NCBI GenBank assembly: GCA_021796015.1
Contig: JAJYOT010000001.1
Location: forward strand, 1-64,000
Reading direction: 5' to 3'
DNA: 64,000 bases
From: a bacterium
Lineage (GTDB): Bacteria; Elusimicrobiota; Elusimicrobia; UBA1565; UBA9628
Shown piece after piece: positions 327-9,982 of the stretch. Numbering within the stretch: the first letter of the stretch is position 1; every line of letters starts with the position of its first letter. The notes below the pieces were generated by a model. It did not search any database. It saw only the letters and a list, made by a program, of their open reading frames with translations, and was not told the DNA's origin. Made by a program: the position numbers and the translations under genes.

Positions 327-391
327 GAAAATCTCGCCTCAACAGCTTTCAACTAAGATAAGAGCGGGACATCCTCTTGGAGGTAACACGA

Positions 392-1030
392 ATGGCACAA
401 ATTTTTGTTTCGCACAGCGCAAAGGACCGCGATCTTGTCAACTTTTTCGCGAAAGCTGGGGCCACGACCAAGGTCAAGCTTGTATTTGAAGAGCTTGAGA
501 AGTTGATTGCCGACAGCGTAAACACGACTAAGATCCAGCAGGATATTCAGTTTTCCAACGCTGCGTTCATCCTGCTCAGCGGAAACGTCGAGCGGACGCC
601 CTACACCCGAGATTGGGTTGTCTGGGAATCGGGCGTTGCGAGTAGCGGGAACAAAGACATCTGGGTTTTCGAACAGCAAGTCGAACAGGGGCAGATTTCC
701 GTTGTCACGCCGCACCTGCGGCACTACGTAGTCCTTGCGCAGAATGATAACTTCTTGGCCTACATTATGAAGGTGATCGAGTCCTACGATGATTCAAATG
801 TCTTGGCCGCCGCGGCGGCCGGAGCGGGCGCAGGGGCGCTTATGGGCGGTCCCGGAGGCGCGGTCATAGGAGCGGTTGGCGGCGCAATCCTTTCCAACAA
901 AGCGTCGCAACGCCCCGTGGGCCAGACAATTCTATGCGGGAAGTGCCGATCGTCGTTTCAGATGCACCACCCGCAAGGCATGAATATGTTTCGTTGCCCG
1001 GTCTGCAACACTTGGCTTCGTTTGGCATAA
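392..1030 (+). CDS. TIR-like domain protein with glycine zipper and zinc ribbon
   Basis: 212 aa. The start is ATG 392, because GGAGG lies 8 bases upstream; an in-frame TTG at 377 lies in front of that site. Residues 1-130 have a TIR/flavodoxin-like pattern: strand IFVSHS at 4-9, a second strand AAFILLSG, then RDWVVWESG, where E79 sits where TIR NADases carry the catalytic glutamate (compare DWVHKE in SARM1). Residues 138-168 form a Gly/Ala-rich glycine zipper that could insert into membrane. The C-terminus is a zinc ribbon with C182, C185, C202 and C205. TIR domains in bacterial defence usually degrade NAD+ or make signalling nucleotides. The gene leads a three-gene operon with a nuclease/STAND-like giant protein and a PIN RNase. 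The combination of TIR, glycine zipper and zinc ribbon is one I do not recognise. NADase activity is inferred. Confidence 0.75.
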   Translation: MAQIFVSHSAKDRDLVNFFAKAGATTKVKLVFEELEKLIADSVNTTKIQQDIQFSNAAFILLSGNVERTPYTRDWVVWESGVASSGNKDIWVFEQQVEQGQISVVTPHLRHYVVLAQNDNFLAYIMKVIESYDDSNVLAAAAAGAGAGALMGGPGGAVIGAVGGAILSNKASQRPVGQTILCGKCRSSFQMHHPQGMNMFRCPVCNTWLRLA

Positions 1031-1051
1031 AGCCAACAAGCGGGTTCGCCA

Positions 1052-4000
1052 ATGCAACACCCTAAATGGATATCCGCAGTCGAGTTGAATCGCTGGGCCG
1101 ATACGGTCGACGCGCGAACTCGCTTCCCGGAACTTGTCCGTCGGTTAATCCACGTTTCAATTCCGAAGGCCGACCTCGAGCTAATCGACTTTCTTGGCGG
1201 TGAGGAGGCCCAGCGTCCAGGGTTTGACGGGCGGACGAAGGCGAAGAGTGGCAGTTCCAAGGTGCCATCGGGCTCCTCTTTTTGGGAGCTTGGAACCGAC
1301 AAAGCGATTCGAGAGAAGCTCGAAAGCGACTTTGAAAAGAGGACCAAGAACAACGCCGAGGCAGTTACTTCTACCTACATCGCCGTCACACCAAGAGATT
1401 TTCAGAAGAAGCACGAATGGACTGAGGAGAAGAAGAATCTTGGGCTTTGGCAAGACGTACGAGTGTATGACTCGAACGATCTTGAACAGTGGATTGAAGA
1501 GTCTCCGAGCGTGGCTCTGTGGTTCATGCGCCTCCTCGGTAGGAACGCGTCCGGTCTCACTGATATCTCATCGCATTGGAACAATCTGCAGGCGAGTATG
1601 AAGCCCCTCCTGCCTCCACAGGCACTATTAGTCTCACGCACGTCGACTGTCAGCGCGATTAAGGACTGGTTGAGCCAAAAGCCCAACTTCCTTTCAATTC
1701 GAGCTGAGTCGCCTCAGGAGGTCGTAGACGTTTTCGCTGCCTGGGTAGCTTCACTTTCGGGAGAACAGCAGGCTACGGTGGCAAGCCGCGCGATCATCGT
1801 TGAACAGGCCGATTCATGGCGACAGCTACTAGACTCGGGGCAAGATTTGATCCTAATCCGGGCGGAACAGCTCGAGTTATCGCAGGAATTGCTGGCGGAA
1901 GCCGATCGCAAAGGGCATTTCGTCCTGTCCCCGCTCTCTGCCTTGTCCCCCGATGGGAGGCAAACCCATAAACTCGAGAGGATGAACCGATACGAACTCG
2001 AGAAAGTTCTGAGCGAATCAGGTATGTCGGAACAAGAGGCCCATGTGAGCGCTCAGCACTCGGGTGGCTCGTTCTCGATCCTGAAGCGCCAGATGTCCAC
2101 CGTCCCAAACATAAAGGCTCCCAAGTGGACTTCAGGCGATGCTGCAACAGAACTTGCCCCCTTACTGCTGGTAGGCGCCTGGGAGGATAGCTCGGTAGCC
2201 GACCAGGCGATCGTTGAGAAGGTTTCTGGGCGGCCATACGCGGATGTGCTCAAGACGCTAAACAAGTGGAGAGAGGAAGCCGATACCCCCGTGCGGTGGG
2301 CGAACGGCGAATGGGAATTTGTCTCGGCCCAAGACGCGTGGAAATTCTTGGCGAAGGCCCTGACACCTGGGCATCTGTCCGCGTTTGAAGACGCCGCTGT
2401 GGCAGCACTAGCGGCAGACGATCCGCGCCTAGAGTTGGAGCGAGAGGATCGCTGGATGGCCAGTGTGCATGGCAAGCTACTCCCGCATTCCGAGGCTATT
2501 CGCCGTGGCTTGTCCCAGAGTTTGGCCTTACTTGCAACACGCGAGTCCAACGAGCAGGTCGCCGACACGATGCCGTTGTGCGACAGGGTCAGCCGCACGG
2601 TGCGAATCATCTTAACCAAAGATGCCTCATGGCGACGGTGGGCATCCCTAGGGCACTTACTATCGACGCTCGCCGAGGCTGCCCCCGATATCTTTCTCCA
2701 TGTCGCCGAGATCGATTTGGGAAGCGCGGATCCTCAACTACCCAAACTCTTCGCCGAAGAAGGCGATAGCTTAACGGGTCGTCCCGAGCATACCGGGATC
2801 CTGTGGGCGCTCGAGAGAGTCGCTTGGGCTCCTGAACATTTGACCCGAGCCGCCATTGTGCTGGCTCACCTCGCGCAACGCGATCCCGGCGGCAAATGGG
2901 CAAACCGGCCGGACGCGAGCCTGAGGGATATATTTTGCCCATGGTTGCCCCACACCACTGCGACGCCCGATCAACAGGTGGATGTTGTTGGGTTGCTCCT
3001 CGAGCGCTTCCCGAAGGTCGGTTGGCAACTGTTGTTGAAACTGCTGCCGGAACAAATGGGCACGATCTCTGGCCGTTCCCTACCTGAATGGAGGTATTGG
3101 GCCGAAAAGTGGAAGCGCAACGTGACCCGTGGAGACTACTCCCGCGTGACAATCACTTACATAAACAAAGCGATCGCGGCTAGCGAAAAAGAGCCCGAGA
3201 AGTGGCTTGACATCTTCAAACACTTTGCCAACTATCCACCAGCGGAACTTGAGCGCGCAATTTCTGCAATGGAAGCCACGGCCAAACTGGAACTTCCTGG
3301 AGAGTTGCGCCTAAAGATTTGGCTCGGCCTCAGGGAGGAGGTTCAGCGCCACAGATACTTTAAGAAAGCCATGTGGGCGATCAGGCAACCGGTTCTTGAG
3401 CGACTTGAGGTGATTGTCAATCTATTCAAGCCTGCTGATCCGGTCGAGCGTGCCCTGCCTCTATTTAAAAATGGATTGGACCTCATTGGCGATGACTCCT
3501 TGTCTTGGTCGGACCAAGAGGCTCTGACTCGGAAGCGACGAGCAGAATGCGTCAAGGAGTTGGTCCAGCAACACGGGTATGAGTCTGTTAAGAATCTGGC
3601 GCGCTCGGCAGGCGAGCCCTGGGCCGTTGGAGTCGCGCTCGTCGATGCCGCCGCCGACAAGTACGACGCCGAGATTCTCCCCACACTTCTCGATTGCGGT
3701 GATTCTCCCCTGGAGGGATTTGCGCGGGGATTCGCGGAGCGCCGTGCATCAATAGGCGGGTGGGATTGGATAAAGGGGTTACCCCTGAGTGGCTGGAAGC
3801 CGAAGCAGGCCGCTATTGTTTTGGAGTTCCTTCCGCATGAAAAGGCTACCTGGGAGTTCGTCGCCACCCTAGGGGAGTCCGTCGAAGCAGAGTATTGGTG
3901 CATGGCCCGGCCGTTCGTCCAAGGCGGGCCGGATGATGTCGAATACATCGTCCGGAAACTCGTGTCGGTCGGACGTTCGGCTTCCGCGCTCGATGTGCTT

Positions 4001-4819
4001 GGCATGGCCACGACGCGGAAAGTCGCTCTGCCCGGCCCCAAGCTCCTCGACCTATTTGAACTGACGCTCCAAACCTTATCGACAGAGAGGCGGCCGTTGC
4101 ACGCGTCGATGGTCGAGGACGTTTTTGGAGAGTTGCAGAATGCGAGAGATGTCGACGGCTCGCGGATGGCGACGCTCGAGTGGTTGCTGTTGCCGGGTCT
4201 ACGCGGACAGATGGTCCCACGCGCGCTTGAACACAAACTCTCCCATGATCCGGCGTTCTTCGTCGACATGTTGATTCTTAACTTCCTACCAAAACACCGA
4301 GACAAGAGCAAAGATGTCGAGCTGCCAGAGGATAAGAAAGAACAGGTTCAGCGGGCTGCCATTCTGCTTGGCGACTGGAAGCGACTACCGGGCGCAAGAG
4401 ACGACGGCTCTGTTGATACCCCCGCGCTTTTAACTTGGGTCCGAGAGGCCCGGAAAAAGGCTACGGAAGTCGACCGGATCGAAGTATGCGACATCATGAT
4501 TGGAAAGGTCTTTGCCTATGCTCAGGAAGATTCTGATGGTTCGTGGCCCTGCCAGCCCGTTCGCGACATCCTAGAAGAAGCGAATTCTACAGATATTGAG
4601 CAGGGTCTGAGGACGGGAATTATCAACAAACGCGGCATCTATTACAAGTCTCCGACTGACGGAGGACGGCAGGAGCGCGAACTGGCAAAGCGATATGAAG
4701 CCTACGCTTTGAAGGCACAGTCCCGCTGGCCGAGGACGGCAACAGTTCTCCAGCGCATCGCAACCTACTATACCAAACAAGCTCGACGCGAAGACGCAGA
4801 GGTCGAGGCCGAGATCTAG
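1052..4819 (+). CDS. Giant defence-type protein: nuclease-like N-terminus, degenerate STAND core, helical repeats
   Basis: 1255 aa, 21 bases after the TIR gene. Residues 1-165 resemble a widespread uncharacterised domain: WADT near 15, RPGFDG at 55-60, VPSGSSFWELG at 71-81, then YIAVTPRDF and the closing DLEQW...LWFMRLLG. D59 and E79 could be the acidic residues of a PD-(D/E)XK-type nuclease, with a migrated lysine such as K84 or K89. Residues about 190-340 follow the layout of a STAND NTPase (RTSTVSAIKDWL, strand, helix, strand, sensor-like SPL), but the Walker A loop is replaced by RAESPQEV and no Walker B acids are visible, so ATP binding is doubtful. The remaining roughly 900 residues look helical and repeat-like, suitable for sensing a phage or cell partner. 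A role as target sensor plus effector is inference; the family function is unknown to me. Confidence 0.6.
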   Translation: MQHPKWISAVELNRWADTVDARTRFPELVRRLIHVSIPKADLELIDFLGGEEAQRPGFDGRTKAKSGSSKVPSGSSFWELGTDKAIREKLESDFEKRTKNNAEAVTSTYIAVTPRDFQKKHEWTEEKKNLGLWQDVRVYDSNDLEQWIEESPSVALWFMRLLGRNASGLTDISSHWNNLQASMKPLLPPQALLVSRTSTVSAIKDWLSQKPNFLSIRAESPQEVVDVFAAWVASLSGEQQATVASRAIIVEQADSWRQLLDSGQDLILIRAEQLELSQELLAEADRKGHFVLSPLSALSPDGRQTHKLERMNRYELEKVLSESGMSEQEAHVSAQHSGGSFSILKRQMSTVPNIKAPKWTSGDAATELAPLLLVGAWEDSSVADQAIVEKVSGRPYADVLKTLNKWREEADTPVRWANGEWEFVSAQDAWKFLAKALTPGHLSAFEDAAVAALAADDPRLELEREDRWMASVHGKLLPHSEAIRRGLSQSLALLATRESNEQVADTMPLCDRVSRTVRIILTKDASWRRWASLGHLLSTLAEAAPDIFLHVAEIDLGSADPQLPKLFAEEGDSLTGRPEHTGILWALERVAWAPEHLTRAAIVLAHLAQRDPGGKWANRPDASLRDIFCPWLPHTTATPDQQVDVVGLLLERFPKVGWQLLLKLLPEQMGTISGRSLPEWRYWAEKWKRNVTRGDYSRVTITYINKAIAASEKEPEKWLDIFKHFANYPPAELERAISAMEATAKLELPGELRLKIWLGLREEVQRHRYFKKAMWAIRQPVLERLEVIVNLFKPADPVERALPLFKNGLDLIGDDSLSWSDQEALTRKRRAECVKELVQQHGYESVKNLARSAGEPWAVGVALVDAAADKYDAEILPTLLDCGDSPLEGFARGFAERRASIGGWDWIKGLPLSGWKPKQAAIVLEFLPHEKATWEFVATLGESVEAEYWCMARPFVQGGPDDVEYIVRKLVSVGRSASALDVLGMATTRKVALPGPKLLDLFELTLQTLSTERRPLHASMVEDVFGELQNARDVDGSRMATLEWLLLPGLRGQMVPRALEHKLSHDPAFFVDMLILNFLPKHRDKSKDVELPEDKKEQVQRAAILLGDWKRLPGARDDGSVDTPALLTWVREARKKATEVDRIEVCDIMIGKVFAYAQEDSDGSWPCQPVRDILEEANSTDIEQGLRTGIINKRGIYYKSPTDGGRQERELAKRYEAYALKAQSRWPRTATVLQRIATYYTKQARREDAEVEAEI

Positions 4820-5460
4820 TGGATATCATCGTCGACAGCAACATAATCTTTTCTGACCCCATGATGAGGTCACAGATTTGGCAGCAGCTGTGGACACACC
4901 TTAAAAAATCTAGCTGCGTCATGCTAGTGCCGGAGGTGGTCAAGAAGGAATGCATCTCGAACCACTTGCAGCATTGCGACAAATATCGAGGTAATATTGT
5001 ATCCGCCGCAGCGAAGCTGGGACGCTTAATAGGACAAGAAATCGAGGTCGAATTACCTTCTGGTGAAACCGACGCCCCTGCCTATCTCGCTCGCTGGGAG
5101 GAACTTCTAATTCAAGGACGAGTTCGATTCTTGCCAAATCCGGGAGCTGGTGCCTTGGAGGACCTTCAGAATCGAGCAATCAAACGCCTACCGCCGTTCG
5201 ACGTGAAGGGAAACGGATTTCGAGATGGGACGATTTGGCTAAGCGTGCGGAATCATGTCCGGAATAAGAATGTGGACACTGCGTTTATTTCCAATGATCG
5301 TACCGCATATTGCGCCAAAGAGTCCGGCGGCATTCTTCATCCCCATCTGCAGAGCGAAATTGGAACAGCGCAATTGCTATTCTTCACAGACATCGGAAAG
5401 TTCTTGGAAGTTGCCGGGGAAGTCCCTGTCAATCAATTTGTCATTGAAGACAAAGCCTAA
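4819..5460 (+). CDS. PIN-domain ribonuclease (DUF4935-like)
   Basis: 213 aa with a GTG start that shares the last base of the preceding stop codon (TAGTG), so it is translationally coupled to the giant protein. The PIN fold is shown by VDSNII with D6 at the end of the first strand, VPEVVKKE with E39 or E44, FRDGTIW with D136, and FISND with D160, together the usual acidic metal site of PIN nucleases. The spacing and the RDG motif fit the DUF4935 branch. PIN proteins cleave RNA; no VapB-like antitoxin lies next to it, so it is probably an effector or processing subunit of this operon and not a stand-alone toxin. RNA target and trigger are unknown. Confidence 0.72.
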   Translation: MDIIVDSNIIFSDPMMRSQIWQQLWTHLKKSSCVMLVPEVVKKECISNHLQHCDKYRGNIVSAAAKLGRLIGQEIEVELPSGETDAPAYLARWEELLIQGRVRFLPNPGAGALEDLQNRAIKRLPPFDVKGNGFRDGTIWLSVRNHVRNKNVDTAFISNDRTAYCAKESGGILHPHLQSEIGTAQLLFFTDIGKFLEVAGEVPVNQFVIEDKA

Positions 5461-5515: not shown

Positions 5516-5962
5516 TCATGGCGACCGTTGGCCGTCCCCGCTTCCGGGGTTATGCGCCTTGGAATAATTTGCCCGCGCCACGACGGGAACAACCTCGGAC
5601 AACCTTTTACACGTCCAGTAAACCCTCACCTTCCAACCCATCGCCCTGAGCTTCCGCGTTACGGCGCGATCCCGCGCGACGTTCTTTGCAATCTTACGCT
5701 TCCAGAACTTGACGTTCGTAGTCGGAAGCTTGCTCCGGCGACAGCCCTTGTGTCCGTGCCAAAAACATCCGTTAATAAACACGGCGACCTTGGCCTCCGG
5801 CAAAACGATATCGGGAGTGCCGGGGAGGCGCGAGCACTGACTGCGGTATCTAACGCCTTGTGCGCGCAGCCGCCGCTTGAGAGCCTTCTCAGGTGCGGTA
5901 TGTTTGTTTCGAATCAACGCCATAATGGCGGAACGTTTTTTCTTCGAGAAAATATCCGCCAT
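5516..5962 (-). CDS. vsr: Very short patch repair endonuclease Vsr
   Basis: 148 aa. It nicks DNA 5' of the T in T:G mismatches made when 5-methylcytosine deaminates, and so protects genomes that carry a cytosine methyltransferase. The start MADIFSKKKRS, PGTPDIVLP with the catalytic D51, and NGCFWHGHKGC with H69, H71 and C74 are typical of the family. It starts 8 bases after the stop codon of the methyltransferase gene, so both are one transcription unit, which is the usual arrangement. The C-terminal tail past about residue 130 is not conserved in the family. It converges on the PIN gene. Confidence 0.93.
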   Translation of the reverse strand: MADIFSKKKRSAIMALIRNKHTAPEKALKRRLRAQGVRYRSQCSRLPGTPDIVLPEAKVAVFINGCFWHGHKGCRRSKLPTTNVKFWKRKIAKNVARDRAVTRKLRAMGWKVRVYWTCKRLSEVVPVVARANYSKAHNPGSGDGQRSP

Positions 5963-5970
5963 TTATGCCG

Positions 5971-7407
5971 TCAAGCAACGACGGTCTCGGTATATATCGA
6001 GACGCTCGCCGAATCTAAAGTTGCCGCGACCGCTTCGCCGATGCGACGGCCGAGAAGCGGAGGGACCGCATTGCCGATTTGACGGGCGATTTCCGTTTTT
6101 GTTCCCCGGAAAATGAAATCGTCGGGGAAGCTCTGGAGTCTCGCCGCCTCGCGATGAGTGATCGGCCGATGCTGCCGCGGATGCAGGTATCTCCCCTTTT
6201 CGGGCTTAAAGAACTCGGTGCGGATCGTAAACGCCGGCTTGTCCCACCACAAACGCCCGAACAAATCCGTCCCGCCCGATTTTTTCCTGATCCAACATTT
6301 GGGAGTGAGGTCAAGACGCTTTTTTTGGAGATCGAATCGGTTTCCCCCCTCGGGGATGCAACGATATCTTTGGAGGCTCGACGGCATAGGAGTGCGGCCG
6401 AAATGCAGGTCCATCGGCGGATTGACCTCGCCGACGCGTACCTCAATGCCTTCCGGATCGGGGAGGTCTCCGATAGCCCGTCCAACCGATTCCCACTGAA
6501 GGAGACCGGTCCTGAAGAGATCGTCGCTCTTTGCCGGGTTGAAATGCGTCGGAAGCGGCAACTTGGGCTTTGCAACTCTGCATCCGATGACGATGGCTCT
6601 GCGGCGGCGTTGCGGAACGCCGTAGTCGGCGGCGTTTAAGACCGCGTAATCCAATTGATAACCCATCTTCGCCGATATCTTTCGAATCTCCGCGAATTCT
6701 TGGGAGGGAAGCAATTCGGGAACGTTTTCCATTACGAACGCAAGCGGCTTCACCCGCTCCACTACCGTCATATACGCGCGCCAAAGCTCTTTTCGAGGAT
6801 CTCCCTCGCGTTTCTTGTTCAACAAGCTGAAACCCTGGCACGGCGGCCCCCCTACTACCAGATCGGCGGCAGGCAACTTCAGATCGCGATGCTCAAGCAG
6901 AGCATTGATATCCCCGCCGACGCAGTGATCGCCGAAGTTATGGTTATAGGTATCCACTGCAAAACGGTTAAAGTCATTGGCAAAGACGGGCTCGAACCGT
7001 TCGGTCTTGGCGAGGCCGAGAGTAAAGCCGCCGGCTCCCGAAAACAGATCGATCACGCGGTATTTCCGGCGCCCGTTAGGATGAAAGCCGTTGCCGTTCT
7101 CCGCGAACAAGCTATGCCCATTAAACGCGGCGACTTGCCGTAAATAGGACACGACCTCCTTCGGTTTCTCGATGAACAAATTCTGAATATCTTTCGGAAG
7201 ACGGCCCGCAAGGATGGTCAGAAGTTCCATATCTCCGCCCAAGCGGCGGCCGATCCGGCGGAGCAGGACGTCCGAGGGAACGACCTTCCCGGATTCTATT
7301 CGACTGAGGTGCGCCCGGTCCACCTTTAGGGTTTTTGACAACTGCTTTAGCCCTATTCCTTTCTGCTTGCGCAGATTCCTCAATATACCGCCCAATCTAT
7401 CGCTCAT
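5971..7407 (-). CDS. dcm: DNA (cytosine-5-)methyltransferase with N-terminal XRE-type HTH
   Basis: 478 aa. The start is ATG 7407, with GGGAGGG six to seven bases upstream. Residues about 5-60 are an XRE/Cro-like helix-turn-helix (LKQLSKTLKVDRAHLSRIESG). The methyltransferase domain shows motif I DLFSGAGGFTLGL at 120-132, motif IV GGPPCQGFS with catalytic C190, motif VI ENV at 227-229, motif VIII QRRRR at 266-270, and motif X QIGNAVPP near the end. It methylates cytosine C5 in a target I cannot predict. Fused N-terminal HTH domains of this kind (as in M.SsoII and M.EcoRII) repress their own promoter. An inverted repeat over the -35 box upstream fits that. It protects the host from the divergent HNH nuclease. 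Confidence 0.93.
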   Translation of the reverse strand: MSDRLGGILRNLRKQKGIGLKQLSKTLKVDRAHLSRIESGKVVPSDVLLRRIGRRLGGDMELLTILAGRLPKDIQNLFIEKPKEVVSYLRQVAAFNGHSLFAENGNGFHPNGRRKYRVIDLFSGAGGFTLGLAKTERFEPVFANDFNRFAVDTYNHNFGDHCVGGDINALLEHRDLKLPAADLVVGGPPCQGFSLLNKKREGDPRKELWRAYMTVVERVKPLAFVMENVPELLPSQEFAEIRKISAKMGYQLDYAVLNAADYGVPQRRRRAIVIGCRVAKPKLPLPTHFNPAKSDDLFRTGLLQWESVGRAIGDLPDPEGIEVRVGEVNPPMDLHFGRTPMPSSLQRYRCIPEGGNRFDLQKKRLDLTPKCWIRKKSGGTDLFGRLWWDKPAFTIRTEFFKPEKGRYLHPRQHRPITHREAARLQSFPDDFIFRGTKTEIARQIGNAVPPLLGRRIGEAVAATLDSASVSIYTETVVA

Positions 7408-7428
7408 TGGAAGCCCTCCCAAGACAAG

Positions 7429-7460
7429 ATTCTAGCAGAGGTTGATTACTTTAGTCAACC
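7429..7460 (-). promoter_or_regulatory. Methyltransferase promoter with overlapping operator
   Basis: On the minus strand TTGACT (7458-7453), 18 bases, TAGAAT (7434-7429) with TGC directly before the -10, an extended -10. The inverted repeat GGTTGA-N9-TCAACC at 7440-7460 covers the -35 box. A repressor bound there would block the promoter, and the helix-turn-helix of the methyltransferase is the natural candidate. The box and repeat are seen; the regulator is inferred. Confidence 0.6.
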
Positions 7461-7565
7461 TTCGTGCAACTAACTGTCAACCCCTATATATACATACGAT
7501 TTTCCTCGGAAAAAGTTCCGTCAAGAGAGTTTGCTTTAAGGTTAAGAAGAAGTAGAATTTGTTTT

Positions 7566-8516
7566 ATGGCGAAATTGAAAAATCGATCCAAAAGCGGTAA
7601 TGACCTCGCGATAACGAAATTGAGGGACTTATTATCCGACATTCCGTCCAGTCCTCCGACCCGCCGCGCTGAAATCCGGGCCGAAGTGCGAAAGCTTGCG
7701 AAAATAATGACAGATTTGCGCGCTCTGGCGAAAATGCGGCTTGGACGGTTGACCACGACATCCGCTGCCCGCGACAGAATCCTTGCCTACCTCAAGTTGT
7801 TCTCGGGCGAAATCATAGATGGCGCCGAATTGCAAATCGTCGGCGGCATTCAGGAGTTCGCTCGGAGAATCCGCGAACTGAGGGTTCAATTCGGATACAA
7901 CGTATCGACCGGCTATTCGCGCGAAGACTTGAGACCTGATCAATACGTGCTTGAGAGCACCGTGCCCGACAAAGAGGCCGCCAAGAAGTGGGGAACGGTA
8001 AACCGGATCAAACGACAGGGCGGCAACGCCCGGAATAGGGCACTTGCGCTTCTTAAGGCATACGTGGGGAGTCCCATTACGGGAGAACAACTTGCCTACG
8101 TATCCGGCATCCGCGAGACGGCACGGCGCATTCGGGAATTGCGGCGGGAATTAGGATGGAGAATCGTCACGAAGCAGACTGGCCGCCCTGATCTGCCCGC
8201 CGGCGTCTATGTGCTCGAATCCGAACAACAGCTTCCCGAGCACGACCGCAGCATTCCCGATCTTGTTTACGATCAAGTCTTGGATCGGGACGCCTACAAG
8301 TGTCGCCGCTGCGGATGGTCTCAGTCGGACCGCAATCCGGCGGGCAAGCGGCAATTCCTGGAAGTCCACCATGTCGTTTATCATCATTTGGGCGGAGGAC
8401 ACGAGCCCGAAAACCTTGTCACCTTATGCAATGTAGACCATGACGAAGTCCATCGTCGAAAGATAATGGGGCAAGAGCTGATCGCCTGGCTGAAAGAAAG
8501 CGCCAAATACAAGTAA
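7566..8516 (+). CDS. HNH restriction endonuclease with duplicated DNA-binding module
   Basis: 316 aa from ATG 7566; an upstream in-frame ATG at 7464 would add a low-quality leader reaching into the promoter region. Residues 68-131 and 155-219 are two copies of one module (R.R.LA.LK...G..I.G..L..V.GI.E.ARRIREL...G, ending YVLES), probably tandem winged-helix DNA-recognition units. Residues 244-296 form an HNH nuclease: C246 and C249, then LEVHHV with H268/H269, ENLVTLC with N283, and HDEVH. It is transcribed divergently from the cytosine methyltransferase/Vsr pair, so it is the likely restriction enzyme of a type II system. A lone DNA-binding or homing-type HNH protein is the alternative. Confidence 0.8.
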   Translation: MAKLKNRSKSGNDLAITKLRDLLSDIPSSPPTRRAEIRAEVRKLAKIMTDLRALAKMRLGRLTTTSAARDRILAYLKLFSGEIIDGAELQIVGGIQEFARRIRELRVQFGYNVSTGYSREDLRPDQYVLESTVPDKEAAKKWGTVNRIKRQGGNARNRALALLKAYVGSPITGEQLAYVSGIRETARRIRELRRELGWRIVTKQTGRPDLPAGVYVLESEQQLPEHDRSIPDLVYDQVLDRDAYKCRRCGWSQSDRNPAGKRQFLEVHHVVYHHLGGGHEPENLVTLCNVDHDEVHRRKIMGQELIAWLKESAKYK

Positions 8517-8687: not shown

Positions 8688-9482
8688 ATGAAAAACCCTT
8701 TTCTGAAGGCCGGACGCTTTGTCGAGGAGCTGCTTGGCCAGGGCCGCTACACCTTCACCCGCGAAGAGGCGGCCCGCAAGCTCGGCCGCTCCCGCAATGC
8801 AACTTATATGTCCCTGCATCGTCTGGTGAACGCCCGAGGTCTGGCCATGCCGCGTTCGGGTTTCTACGTCGTGGTCGATGCGCAGCATCGGGCCGTCGGC
8901 ACCCTGCCGGCCGAATGGTTCATCCACGAGATGATGAAGGACATGGGCCGTCCTTACTATGTCGGGTTGTTGTCGGCGGCGCAGGTTCACGGCGCGGCGC
9001 ACCACCGCCCCCAGGAGTTCCAGGTCATAATCCCGGAGCGCGCGGCGCGGCCGGTGCGTTCAGGCAACGTCTCGATCCGCTTTCACGGCAAGGGGCCTTT
9101 CGAGCGCGCGCAGACCCAGGATGTGAAAACTCCGACAGGCTTCATGCGGGTCTCGACTCCCGAGACAACAGCCTGGGACCTCGTGCGCTACTTCAAGGTC
9201 GCGGGAGGGCTTGATCACGTCGTGACCATCCTGTCCGAGCTGGCGGAAAAAATCGACGCCGCGAAACTTAAGAAACTCGTCAAAGCGCACGGCGAAATGA
9301 TCGTGGCGCAGCGGCTCGGCTATCTTCTGGATAAAATCGGACGCCGCGACCTGTCCAAGGAACTCGCCGATTGGGTCAAGGACGCGCCGTTGCGTCCGCT
9401 TGACCCCGCCGCCCCCTTCCCCGACTTGGAGAGCCGGAAGTGGCGGCTCTGGATCAACGCAAACCCCGAGCCCGAGGCATGA
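8688..9482 (+). CDS. abiEi: AbiEi-type antitoxin / transcriptional repressor
   Basis: 264 aa. AbiEi is the antitoxin of type IV toxin-antitoxin systems that abort phage infection; it represses its own operon and counteracts the nucleotidyltransferase AbiEii without forming a stable complex. The N-terminal winged helix (TREEAARKLGRSRNATYMSLHRL at about 24-46, followed by a GFYVVV wing) and the C-terminal domain with PAEWFIHEMM, YYVGLLSAAQ.HG and STPETTAWDLVRY are the family's signature. ATG lies 11 bases after a TATAAT box. Its stop overlaps the start of the toxin gene (ATGA). It looks complete, unlike its partner. Confidence 0.9.
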   Translation: MKNPFLKAGRFVEELLGQGRYTFTREEAARKLGRSRNATYMSLHRLVNARGLAMPRSGFYVVVDAQHRAVGTLPAEWFIHEMMKDMGRPYYVGLLSAAQVHGAAHHRPQEFQVIIPERAARPVRSGNVSIRFHGKGPFERAQTQDVKTPTGFMRVSTPETTAWDLVRYFKVAGGLDHVVTILSELAEKIDAAKLKKLVKAHGEMIVAQRLGYLLDKIGRRDLSKELADWVKDAPLRPLDPAAPFPDLESRKWRLWINANPEPEA

Positions 9483-9982
9483 TTCCCGAGGCCGCGATCA
9501 CGCATTGGCGCGGCATTGCGCCTTGGCCGCAGGACGCCCAAGTCGAGCAGGACCTGATTCTCTCTCGCGCGCTGACCGAAATATTTCAGGATCCGCTGTT
9601 GTCTAAGTCCCTTCTTCTGCGCGGCGGCACCGCGCTGCACAAGCTTTTGGTTAAAACGCCGCATCGCTACTCGGAGGACATTGACCTCGTTCAGATAAAG
9701 TCCGAGTCAATCGGGCCGGTCATGAGCGCCATCCGCGCCCGACTCGACCCTGTCTTGGGGAAGCCTCGACGCGAGAACAACTCCGACAATGTCACGCTGC
9801 GCTACAGAATGGAGTCGGAGATATCTCCGATCGCGCCCATGCGTCTTAAGATCGAGATCAATACCCGAGAGCATTTCACGGCCTATGAGCCCGAAGCGCG
9901 GCCCTTCTTAAGCGCCGCTTCGGCATCGGAGTTAAAAGGACGGGAAAGAAGCGAGATCAGCTCCTCGGCCGCGAAGAGTTAA
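9479..9982 (+). CDS. abiEii: AbiEii-type nucleotidyltransferase toxin, C-terminally truncated
   Basis: 167 aa, against the roughly 250-300 usual in the family. It overlaps abiEi by four bases. The N-terminal nucleotidyltransferase core is present: LLLRGGTALHKLL, then RYSEDIDLV (motif I with its acid), and LKIEIN (motif III). Similarity stops around residue 140 (ARPF); the tail to residue 167 is low-complexity and the usual C-terminal half, with its conserved K/R-GRD-type motif and helical bundle, is absent. The stop codon lies inside the 3' end of the opposing hydrolase gene, so the truncation coincides with a recombination junction. Toxicity is probably lost; the antitoxin may remain only as a repressor. 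Confidence 0.75.
   Translation: MIPEAAITHWRGIAPWPQDAQVEQDLILSRALTEIFQDPLLSKSLLLRGGTALHKLLVKTPHRYSEDIDLVQIKSESIGPVMSAIRARLDPVLGKPRRENNSDNVTLRYRMESEISPIAPMRLKIEINTREHFTAYEPEARPFLSAASASELKGRERSEISSSAAKS

Follow-up and report, generated by a model that had tools for sequence, protein, structure and literature searches.

A giant nuclease-like STAND protein lacking Walker A in an Elusimicrobiota operon, a putative receptor remotely related to PD-λ-4A

Introduction

It is a common view that immune receptors of the STAND type, whether bacterial or human, are switches controlled by ATP. In this study we analyze three genes at the start of a 64,000-nucleotide stretch of DNA (hereafter the window) from a bacterium of the Elusimicrobiota (GenBank assembly GCA_021796015.1, contig JAJYOT010000001.1, positions 1 to 64,000). 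They encode a TIR–zinc-ribbon protein, a 1255-residue protein in which a nuclease-like domain precedes a STAND core devoid of Walker A (hereafter the giant, its relatives being the giants), and a PIN-domain protein.

Avs5 is a STAND protein with a SIR2 effector. Substitutions in its Walker A abolish protection, and so does the replacement of the Walker B Glu with Ala, but not with Gln (PMC12931631). PD-λ-4 has been placed under P-loop NTPases and credited to Vassallo et al. 2022 (PMC10952713); the name was not found in the available main text of that paper (PMC9519451). The partner protein, PD-Lambda-4_B, has no Pfam match, and its link to the CoiA domain mentioned in PMC9519451 is an unconfirmed guess.

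STAND proteins without Walker motifs are an established theme. Inactive STAND (iSTAND) proteins were described in MoxR-vWA systems (PMC7159879), and iSTAND2 in MoxR-vWA ternary systems; a further inactive STAND is described as well, and so is a system whose active and eroded STANDs were proposed to form a hetero-multimer (PMC8195603). BrxB-like iSTANDs occur across BREX (BrxB, BrxF and PglW), and in PglW of type-2 BREX a single chain holds a NERD nuclease domain and, separated from it by kinases and winged helices, an iSTAND (PMC12839542).

Results

The first 620 residues of the giant gave a confident model (predicted local distance difference test, pLDDT, 90.9; predicted template modeling score, pTM, 0.86), in which a PD-(D/E)XK-like nuclease precedes a STAND/AAA+ core; structure prediction of the three proteins had been proposed in a first-pass annotation. 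The secondary structure assigned to the model by DSSP (helices 19-36 and 86-98; strands 42-47, 60-64, 74-80 and 108-112) corresponds to the alpha-beta-beta-beta-alpha-beta core of the superfamily, with D59 and E79, the acids already singled out in that annotation, at strands 2 and 3. The family alignment comprises 78 rows (the window, 45 database proteins and 32 loci) and was not de-duplicated; the nuclease residues are covered by 75 rows, and D59 and E79 are identical in all of them. The canonical Lys two residues past E79 is missing, position 81 being Gly in 63/75 rows and Ser in 12/75. Relocations of the catalytic Lys occur in the PD-(D/E)XK superfamily, and in the giant this residue may have shifted to the following helix, with K89 as the replacement. 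The giant has no Pfam or NCBIfam match, and sequence comparison with solved structures gave nothing useful and no Avs match. TPR-GreA/B-C-PIN proteins (PMC8195603) were considered for their combination of helical repeats and PIN, and ruled out by a Pfam scan of 32 giants, which found none at E 0.1, and by the STAND fold match.

The lost motif is Walker A. There is no Gly-rich loop at the aligned site, where Lys is found at position 224 in 0/78 rows and Thr at position 225 in 1/78. The pattern GxxxxGK[ST] is absent from all 74 proteins searched (the window counted twice), looser forms being found in six of them at scattered places. Counted by distinct giants, Walker A is present in 0/58 that cover the region (4 of the 62 distinct giants do not) versus 8/8 PD-λ-4A-like proteins. 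The loss of the P-loop from a STAND outline, reported before for the window's protein, is thus family-wide. As for Walker B, an acid is found in 0/78 rows at position 270, in 4/78 at position 271 (the one in hhalign register with the Asp of PD-λ-4A) and in 30/78 at position 272, the window included; judged from the alignment, the Walker B acid is not conserved, yet not cleanly absent. A STAND/AAA+ fold without Walker A and without a conserved Walker B acid places the giant among iSTANDs. The protein had been called nuclease-degenerate. Because D59, E79 and K89 are identical in 75/75 rows, this has to be turned around: the nuclease site, though rearranged, does not vary, and alignment identifies the NTPase as the decayed domain.

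By profile alignment, the giant is a remote, collinear homologue of PD-λ-4A. Comparison by hhalign of 32 giants with a four-member PD-λ-4A family gave a probability of 99.3% (E 2.6e-20) over 963 collinear columns, while column-shuffled and reversed controls gave 0.1% and 0.6%. With one or two PD-λ-4A sequences the values were 87.5% and 93.9%, and with other settings 97.9%; the controls of the smaller run (reversed, two shuffled, Mfd, NHL and GcvP) all stayed at 0.1-0.2%. When parts were compared, the nuclease alone reached 97.4% and the C-terminal region 91.3%. Because the NTPase part alone is unmatched, the evidence for homology comes from the two ends, with the middle aligned in register and by structure. 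The single-sequence match of the PADLOC PD-Lambda-4_A profile to the giant spans aa 136-198 only (E 1.3e-5).

Giant and PD-λ-4A are of similar length and have a block of motifs in common in their nuclease-like N-terminal domain; they also resemble each other in the position of the P-loop domain and in a long C-terminal region. What sets them apart is Walker A (GLSGVGKT) and the partner B gene, both of which are lacking in the giant. Neighbor checks in the window covered the nine proteins of its first 10.8 kb, the left flank falling outside the window; among these nine no PD-Lambda-4_B match was found, and the adjoining genes encode the TIR and PIN proteins. Filing the giant as PD-λ-4 was rejected for the missing Walker A and B partner. 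Full PD-λ-4A matches were found in 2/295 drawn genomes (loci L034 and L035) and partial ones in five more; L034 carries PD-Lambda-4_B (E 1.4e-191). Loci L036-L039 hold PD-λ-4A-like P-loop proteins whose N-terminus, by eye, is alpha/beta-hydrolase-like (HGLGG motif) and not a nuclease; in L037 this part is a separate upstream open reading frame (ORF). Going by this motif, the same STAND body may here carry a lipase-type effector.

In structural comparison by Foldseek, the best PDB matches of aa 1-620 were to the AVAST5 filament (E 2.6e-6 and 2.3e-5), followed by Apaf-1, NLRC4 and NOD2 (E 3.8e-3 to 1.4e-2), and an Avs4 structure aligned over aa 6-620. The model has an N-terminal effector and a STAND fold, and the giant would share with Avs4 and Avs5 the order effector, STAND core, helical sensor. 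It differs from Avs5, with its SIR2 effector and essential Walker A (PMC12931631), in lacking a functional Walker A, and no PADLOC Avs profile matched it. With the described iSTAND systems it has in common the STAND fold, the eroded Walker motifs and a defense setting, the iSTAND being proposed there as sensor. The iSTANDs of BREX and MoxR-vWA work beside PglZ or MoxR-vWA; no gene for either is found among the nine window proteins. In PglW the iSTAND is compact and C-terminal, whereas the order in the giant is nuclease, iSTAND and long C-terminal region. No Avs-like nuclease–iSTAND–helical order was found described in the open-access papers searched, for which reason, together with the absence of a Pfam or NCBIfam match, we deem the layout undescribed. 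Its novelty is lowered by PglW, which already joins nuclease and iSTAND in one chain (PMC12839542). Titles and abstract starts of the open-access papers listed contained no PIN/TIR/STAND or PIN/TIR/zinc-ribbon trio. The earlier remark that no named system with this make-up was known has to be qualified: PD-λ-4A is a remote homologue of the giant, and inactive STANDs are already in the literature under the name iSTAND.

The first gene encodes a protein with a predicted TIR fold and a Glu in helix alpha-C, as had been proposed from its sequence. W75 and E79 sit in helix 72-85, after strand 57-62, and are identical in an alignment of 21 rows, a chosen subset of 302 database matches. The TIR_2 match (E 0.0063) is short of the Pfam cut-off, the ThsB TIR-like PADLOC profile gave E 9.4e-7, and the sequence profile search of the PDB gave E 0.084 to 7uwg/7uxu, a TIR. 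Many DNPH1/deoxyribosyltransferase chains scored nearly as high as TIRs in the structure search of the model. The protein would probably be an NAD-consuming enzyme; perhaps it is anchored in the membrane through its glycine zipper. On TIR combined with a glycine zipper, the open-access papers searched contained nothing relevant. Thoeris ThsB and other bacterial TIRs share with it the fold and a Glu in the helix expected for the catalytic one, the ThsB profile match being weak. It differs from them by its glycine zipper and zinc ribbon, its sequence is too distant for assignment to Thoeris, and no ThsA partner was matched among the nine window proteins. Searches with the TIR profile found a match in 0/23 genomes, and partial TIR-domain matches (E 3e-5 to 8e-4) in 3/247 and 2/297 genomes. 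On a contig classed as viral, L033:8001-8651 is a TIR–zinc-ribbon gene with no giant in the stretch examined, about 2.2 kb from a tyrosine-recombinase-like ORF.

The third gene encodes a PIN_12 protein, scoring above the curated cut-off of PF16289, a family that we take to be the former DUF4935. Its own family has four database members, the window's included; D136 and D160 are present in 4/4 and Asp6 in the three rows reaching the N-terminus, in support of the acids predicted previously. For DUF4935 the open-access papers searched gave a single, unrelated one, and sequence comparison with solved structures gave nothing useful. The protein would act as partner RNase in the operon.

Re-reading the sequence gave the same three same-strand ORFs as before, packed as in an operon (Table 1), with a 21-nt gap between TIR and giant genes and a 1-nt overlap of the giant stop with the PIN start. 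The ATG at 392 was taken as the TIR start because of the Shine-Dalgarno sequence 5' of it. A sigma-70-like site at 297-326 gives weak support to an operon promoter there, the region holding 10 such sites in total where 4.2 are expected from shuffles.

Table 1. Features of the three-gene operon and of giant loci elsewhere. Positions are those of the window unless an L number, our handle for a locus outside it, is given.
Feature	Position	Strand	Basis or content
Giant nuclease–inactive STAND–helical protein, 1255 aa	1052..4819	+	ORF, homologues, model, hhalign
PD-(D/E)XK-like nuclease domain, aa 1-153	1052..1510	+	D59, E79, K89 in 75/75 rows; D93 in 74/75
Inactive STAND/AAA+ core and helical/winged part, aa 166-430	1547..2341	+	Model, alignment
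C-terminal region, aa 431-1255, putative helical sensor	2342..4816	+	Model covers aa 431-620 only; sensor role inferred from Avs
Missing Walker A position, AESPQEVV, aa 218-225	1703..1726	+	Aligned to GLSGVGKT of PD-λ-4A
Walker B region, LILIRAEQ, aa 266-273	1847..1870	+	Acid not conserved
PIN-domain protein (PF16289 PIN_12), 213 aa, GTG start	4819..5460	+	Pfam E 9.4e-15
TIR–glycine-zipper–zinc-ribbon protein, 212 aa	392..1030	+	Profiles, 21-row alignment, fold match
TIR domain, aa 1-135	392..796	+	W75 and E79 identical in 21/21 rows
Glycine-rich stretch, aa 137-168, possible membrane hairpin	800..895	+	Modeled at pLDDT <50
Four-cysteine C-terminal zinc ribbon	923..1027	+	C182, C185, C202, C205 identical in 21/21 rows
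GGAGGT Shine-Dalgarno	379..384	+	Read directly; seven bases 5' of the TIR-gene ATG (392)
Giant and PD-λ-4A-like tandems	L045:4716-12682, L046:4662-12689		Active/inactive STAND pair on Rhizobium plasmids
3' partners of giants, first five loci			PIN (window), DUF3800 (L006), Abi_C (L023), 228-aa protein without assignment (L024), Lit-like (L061)
3' partners of giants, other five loci			PD-λ-4A-like (L045, L046), AbiJ_NTD4 (L066), BrxF (L071), REase-like (L073)
Short downstream ORFs without assignment			L060, L067, L070, L075

Right of the operon, between 5.5 and 10 kb, Pfam and PADLOC profiles identified Vsr, a cytosine methylase with a helix-turn-helix (HTH), an HNH protein, AbiEi and a shortened AbiEii. 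The description of the neighbors as all defense modules applies to this part; of the ten genes tested further right, seven match ordinary Pfam families (hemC, mfd, gcvP and others) and three match none. The Vsr endonuclease, the methylase (HTH N-terminal) and the HNH protein (two winged-helix matches) at 5516-8516 look like a type II restriction-modification unit. The window's AbiE lies 3.2 kb downstream of the operon; its AbiEii (9440-9982) is shortened to 180 aa, covers profile positions 1-142 of 260 and sits close to where G+C falls to the value typical of the remaining window; perhaps it marks the edge of an island. G+C is 0.55-0.56 in the first 10 kb and 0.49 in the remainder, as would be expected of an acquired island there.

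Discussion

Computation establishes the order of the domains within aa 1-620, the loss of Walker A in all giants examined, the absence of a conserved Walker B acid and the invariance of the nuclease site. The interpretation we put forward, which we hold to be about as probable as its opposite, is that the giant is a putative receptor with its own nuclease, PD-λ-4A/Avs-like, in which the central STAND has become a pseudo-NTPase and to which TIR and PIN are local auxiliary effectors. Its C-terminal region would bind a phage or plasmid component, and binding would free an autoinhibited chain. Giant chains would then assemble through the inactive STAND core with no ATP switch, and the nuclease domains brought together in this way would cut DNA. 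The TIR protein and the PIN RNase would be locally acquired, probably co-transcribed auxiliary effectors, with a different 3' partner in some other lineages and none closely coupled in most.

Several observations weigh against this interpretation. With Gly or Ser at position 81, catalysis would need K89 or another residue. The match to PD-λ-4A weakens with fewer PD-λ-4A sequences (87.5-97.9%), and the NTPase segment alone has no significant match (0.2%, 0.9%). Template modeling (TM) scores to AVAST5 are low (0.23-0.29), and the root-mean-square deviation of the Avs4 alignment is 17.8. The acid at aa 272, the residue next after the one in Walker B register, makes some nucleotide contact possible. 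Walker A is essential in Avs5 according to PMC12931631, so that the Avs class offers no established case of a mechanism without ATP. None of the 71 other giant loci holds the TIR family and a single one holds PIN, and the defense neighbors of giants are individual cases, not a count against a background rate.

The first-pass annotation treated the three genes as one system. In its strictest form this means one dedicated machine in which the giant senses, TIR signals or depletes NAD and PIN degrades RNA, all being needed. The tight gene packing is in line with it, and so are two pairs of database matches with equal longest contigs, which implies a shared contig in each case without showing gene order: giant P0003 (78%) with TIR P0048 (87%) on 58501 bases, and giant P0002 (86%) with PIN P0168 (77%) on 16878 bases. 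No other pair agrees among the TIR, giant and PIN matches listed; the pairing rests on 120 of the 302 TIR matches, and many contigs are too short for two genes. The closest giants (41-86% identity) are known as database proteins only. This is a hint that TIR or PIN is linked to the giant pairwise, and only in the closest metagenomic relatives. On the other side stand the 71 loci (62 distinct), whose sole PIN gene (PF16289) lies 246 nt downstream of the giant in L010; as flanks reach at least 700 nt on both sides in 43/62 distinct loci, the absence of TIR and PIN is well, not fully, covered. The TIR family, with its 302 matches, is also found apart from the giant, which is missing at the sole viral TIR locus found. 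The co-occurrence check that had been called for thus returned no trio outside the closest relatives; as a conserved system the trio was rejected, and one dedicated machine is unlikely.

It is also conceivable, and quite unlikely in our view, that the main role of the giant is that of a DNA-binding regulator, or of a component of addiction modules of mobile elements, rather than that of a phage receptor. Giants are found in Pseudomonadota, Bacteroidota, Planctomycetota, Myxococcota and Binatota, and further on an Arthrobacter plasmid, in an Elusimicrobiota metagenome-assembled genome and in the phylum of Candidatus Sulfotelmatobacter. Their frequency in three draws of genomes was 7/294, 12/297 and 2/247, fragments included, each draw counting its center genome, itself a known giant carrier. 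Plasmid records with a giant match number 22 (11 conjugative, 5 mobilizable and 6 non-mobilizable); viral contigs held one partial giant, one TIR and no PIN relative. Besides the plasmid copies, a regulatory role is suggested by N-terminal extensions longer than 70 aa (longest ORF) in 37/55 distinct giants with complete N-terminus outside the window (39/58 before de-duplication), the four scanned being all HTH domains, and by one giant annotated as HigA antitoxin. However, the window's clade has no HTH, no recurrent adjoining toxin gene was seen except AbiE in four loci, and an invariant nuclease site plus a STAND core would be excessive for a repressor.

An inactive STAND might instead work only as a hetero-oligomer with an active one, the window's active partner being elsewhere or replaced. 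In plasmids of R. gallicum and R. leguminosarum, a PD-λ-4A-like protein of full length, its Walker A (GASGLGKS) intact, is encoded 54 nt (L045; E 9.6e-61) and 64 nt (L046; E 8.1e-66) downstream of the giant, and the published pairing of an active with an eroded STAND in a proposed hetero-multimer offers a precedent (PMC8195603). Such tandems are present in only 2/71 loci, and 35/49 distinct giants lack any ORF of at least 100 aa near the stop; we hold this explanation to be very unlikely. Least probable of all is a central domain that still binds nucleotide through a rewritten site including E223, within the former Walker A (Glu in 73/78 rows), R346 (75/77) or the acid at 272, given that the Gly-rich loop, Lys224, Thr225 and the aligned Walker B acid are missing from all or nearly all rows.

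For a putative receptor carrying its own nuclease, neighboring genes would be accessory. An ORF of at least 100 aa starts between -60 and +80 nt from the stop in 14/49 distinct giants (window included, at least 400 nt downstream), and ten of these 14 look real (Table 1); since the remaining 35/49 have none, giants with a closely coupled 3' partner are in the minority. In L024:13800-14486, the 228-aa protein begins 23 nt past the giant and has, by eye, an RNAISH stretch resembling a HEPN motif, with no Pfam or PADLOC match. The BrxF gene at L071:5298-5810 overlaps the end of the giant; this copy shows a GPSRSGKT loop, though BrxF is called an inactive STAND in PMC12839542. Upstream, an AbiEi/AbiEii pair is divergently oriented in L001, L028, L045 and L083, and individual giants have CBASS, PDC-S39, OLD/Gabija-like, Lit-like, AbiJ, BrxF or Abi_C neighbors. 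In L064:3-5301, the giant comes immediately after genes for a 4TM effector and a CBASS cyclase, the latter truncated where the locus ends.

The giant family is widespread and apparently unnamed. We tentatively suggest, as a possibility we rate below an even chance, that it represents a broad class of bacterial NLR/Avs-like receptors without a nucleotide switch, in which recognition would drive nuclease assembly without ATP. Some members would have exchangeable 3' genes (PIN RNase, Lit-like protease, AbiJ, Abi_C, DUF3800), an upstream TIR could be added, and the class would probably originate from an active PD-λ-4A-like ancestor. A family with the receptor layout and an invariant nuclease but no Walker A would allow a direct test of nucleotide-free recognition and assembly, and the Rhizobium tandems set active and inactive versions of the STAND side by side.

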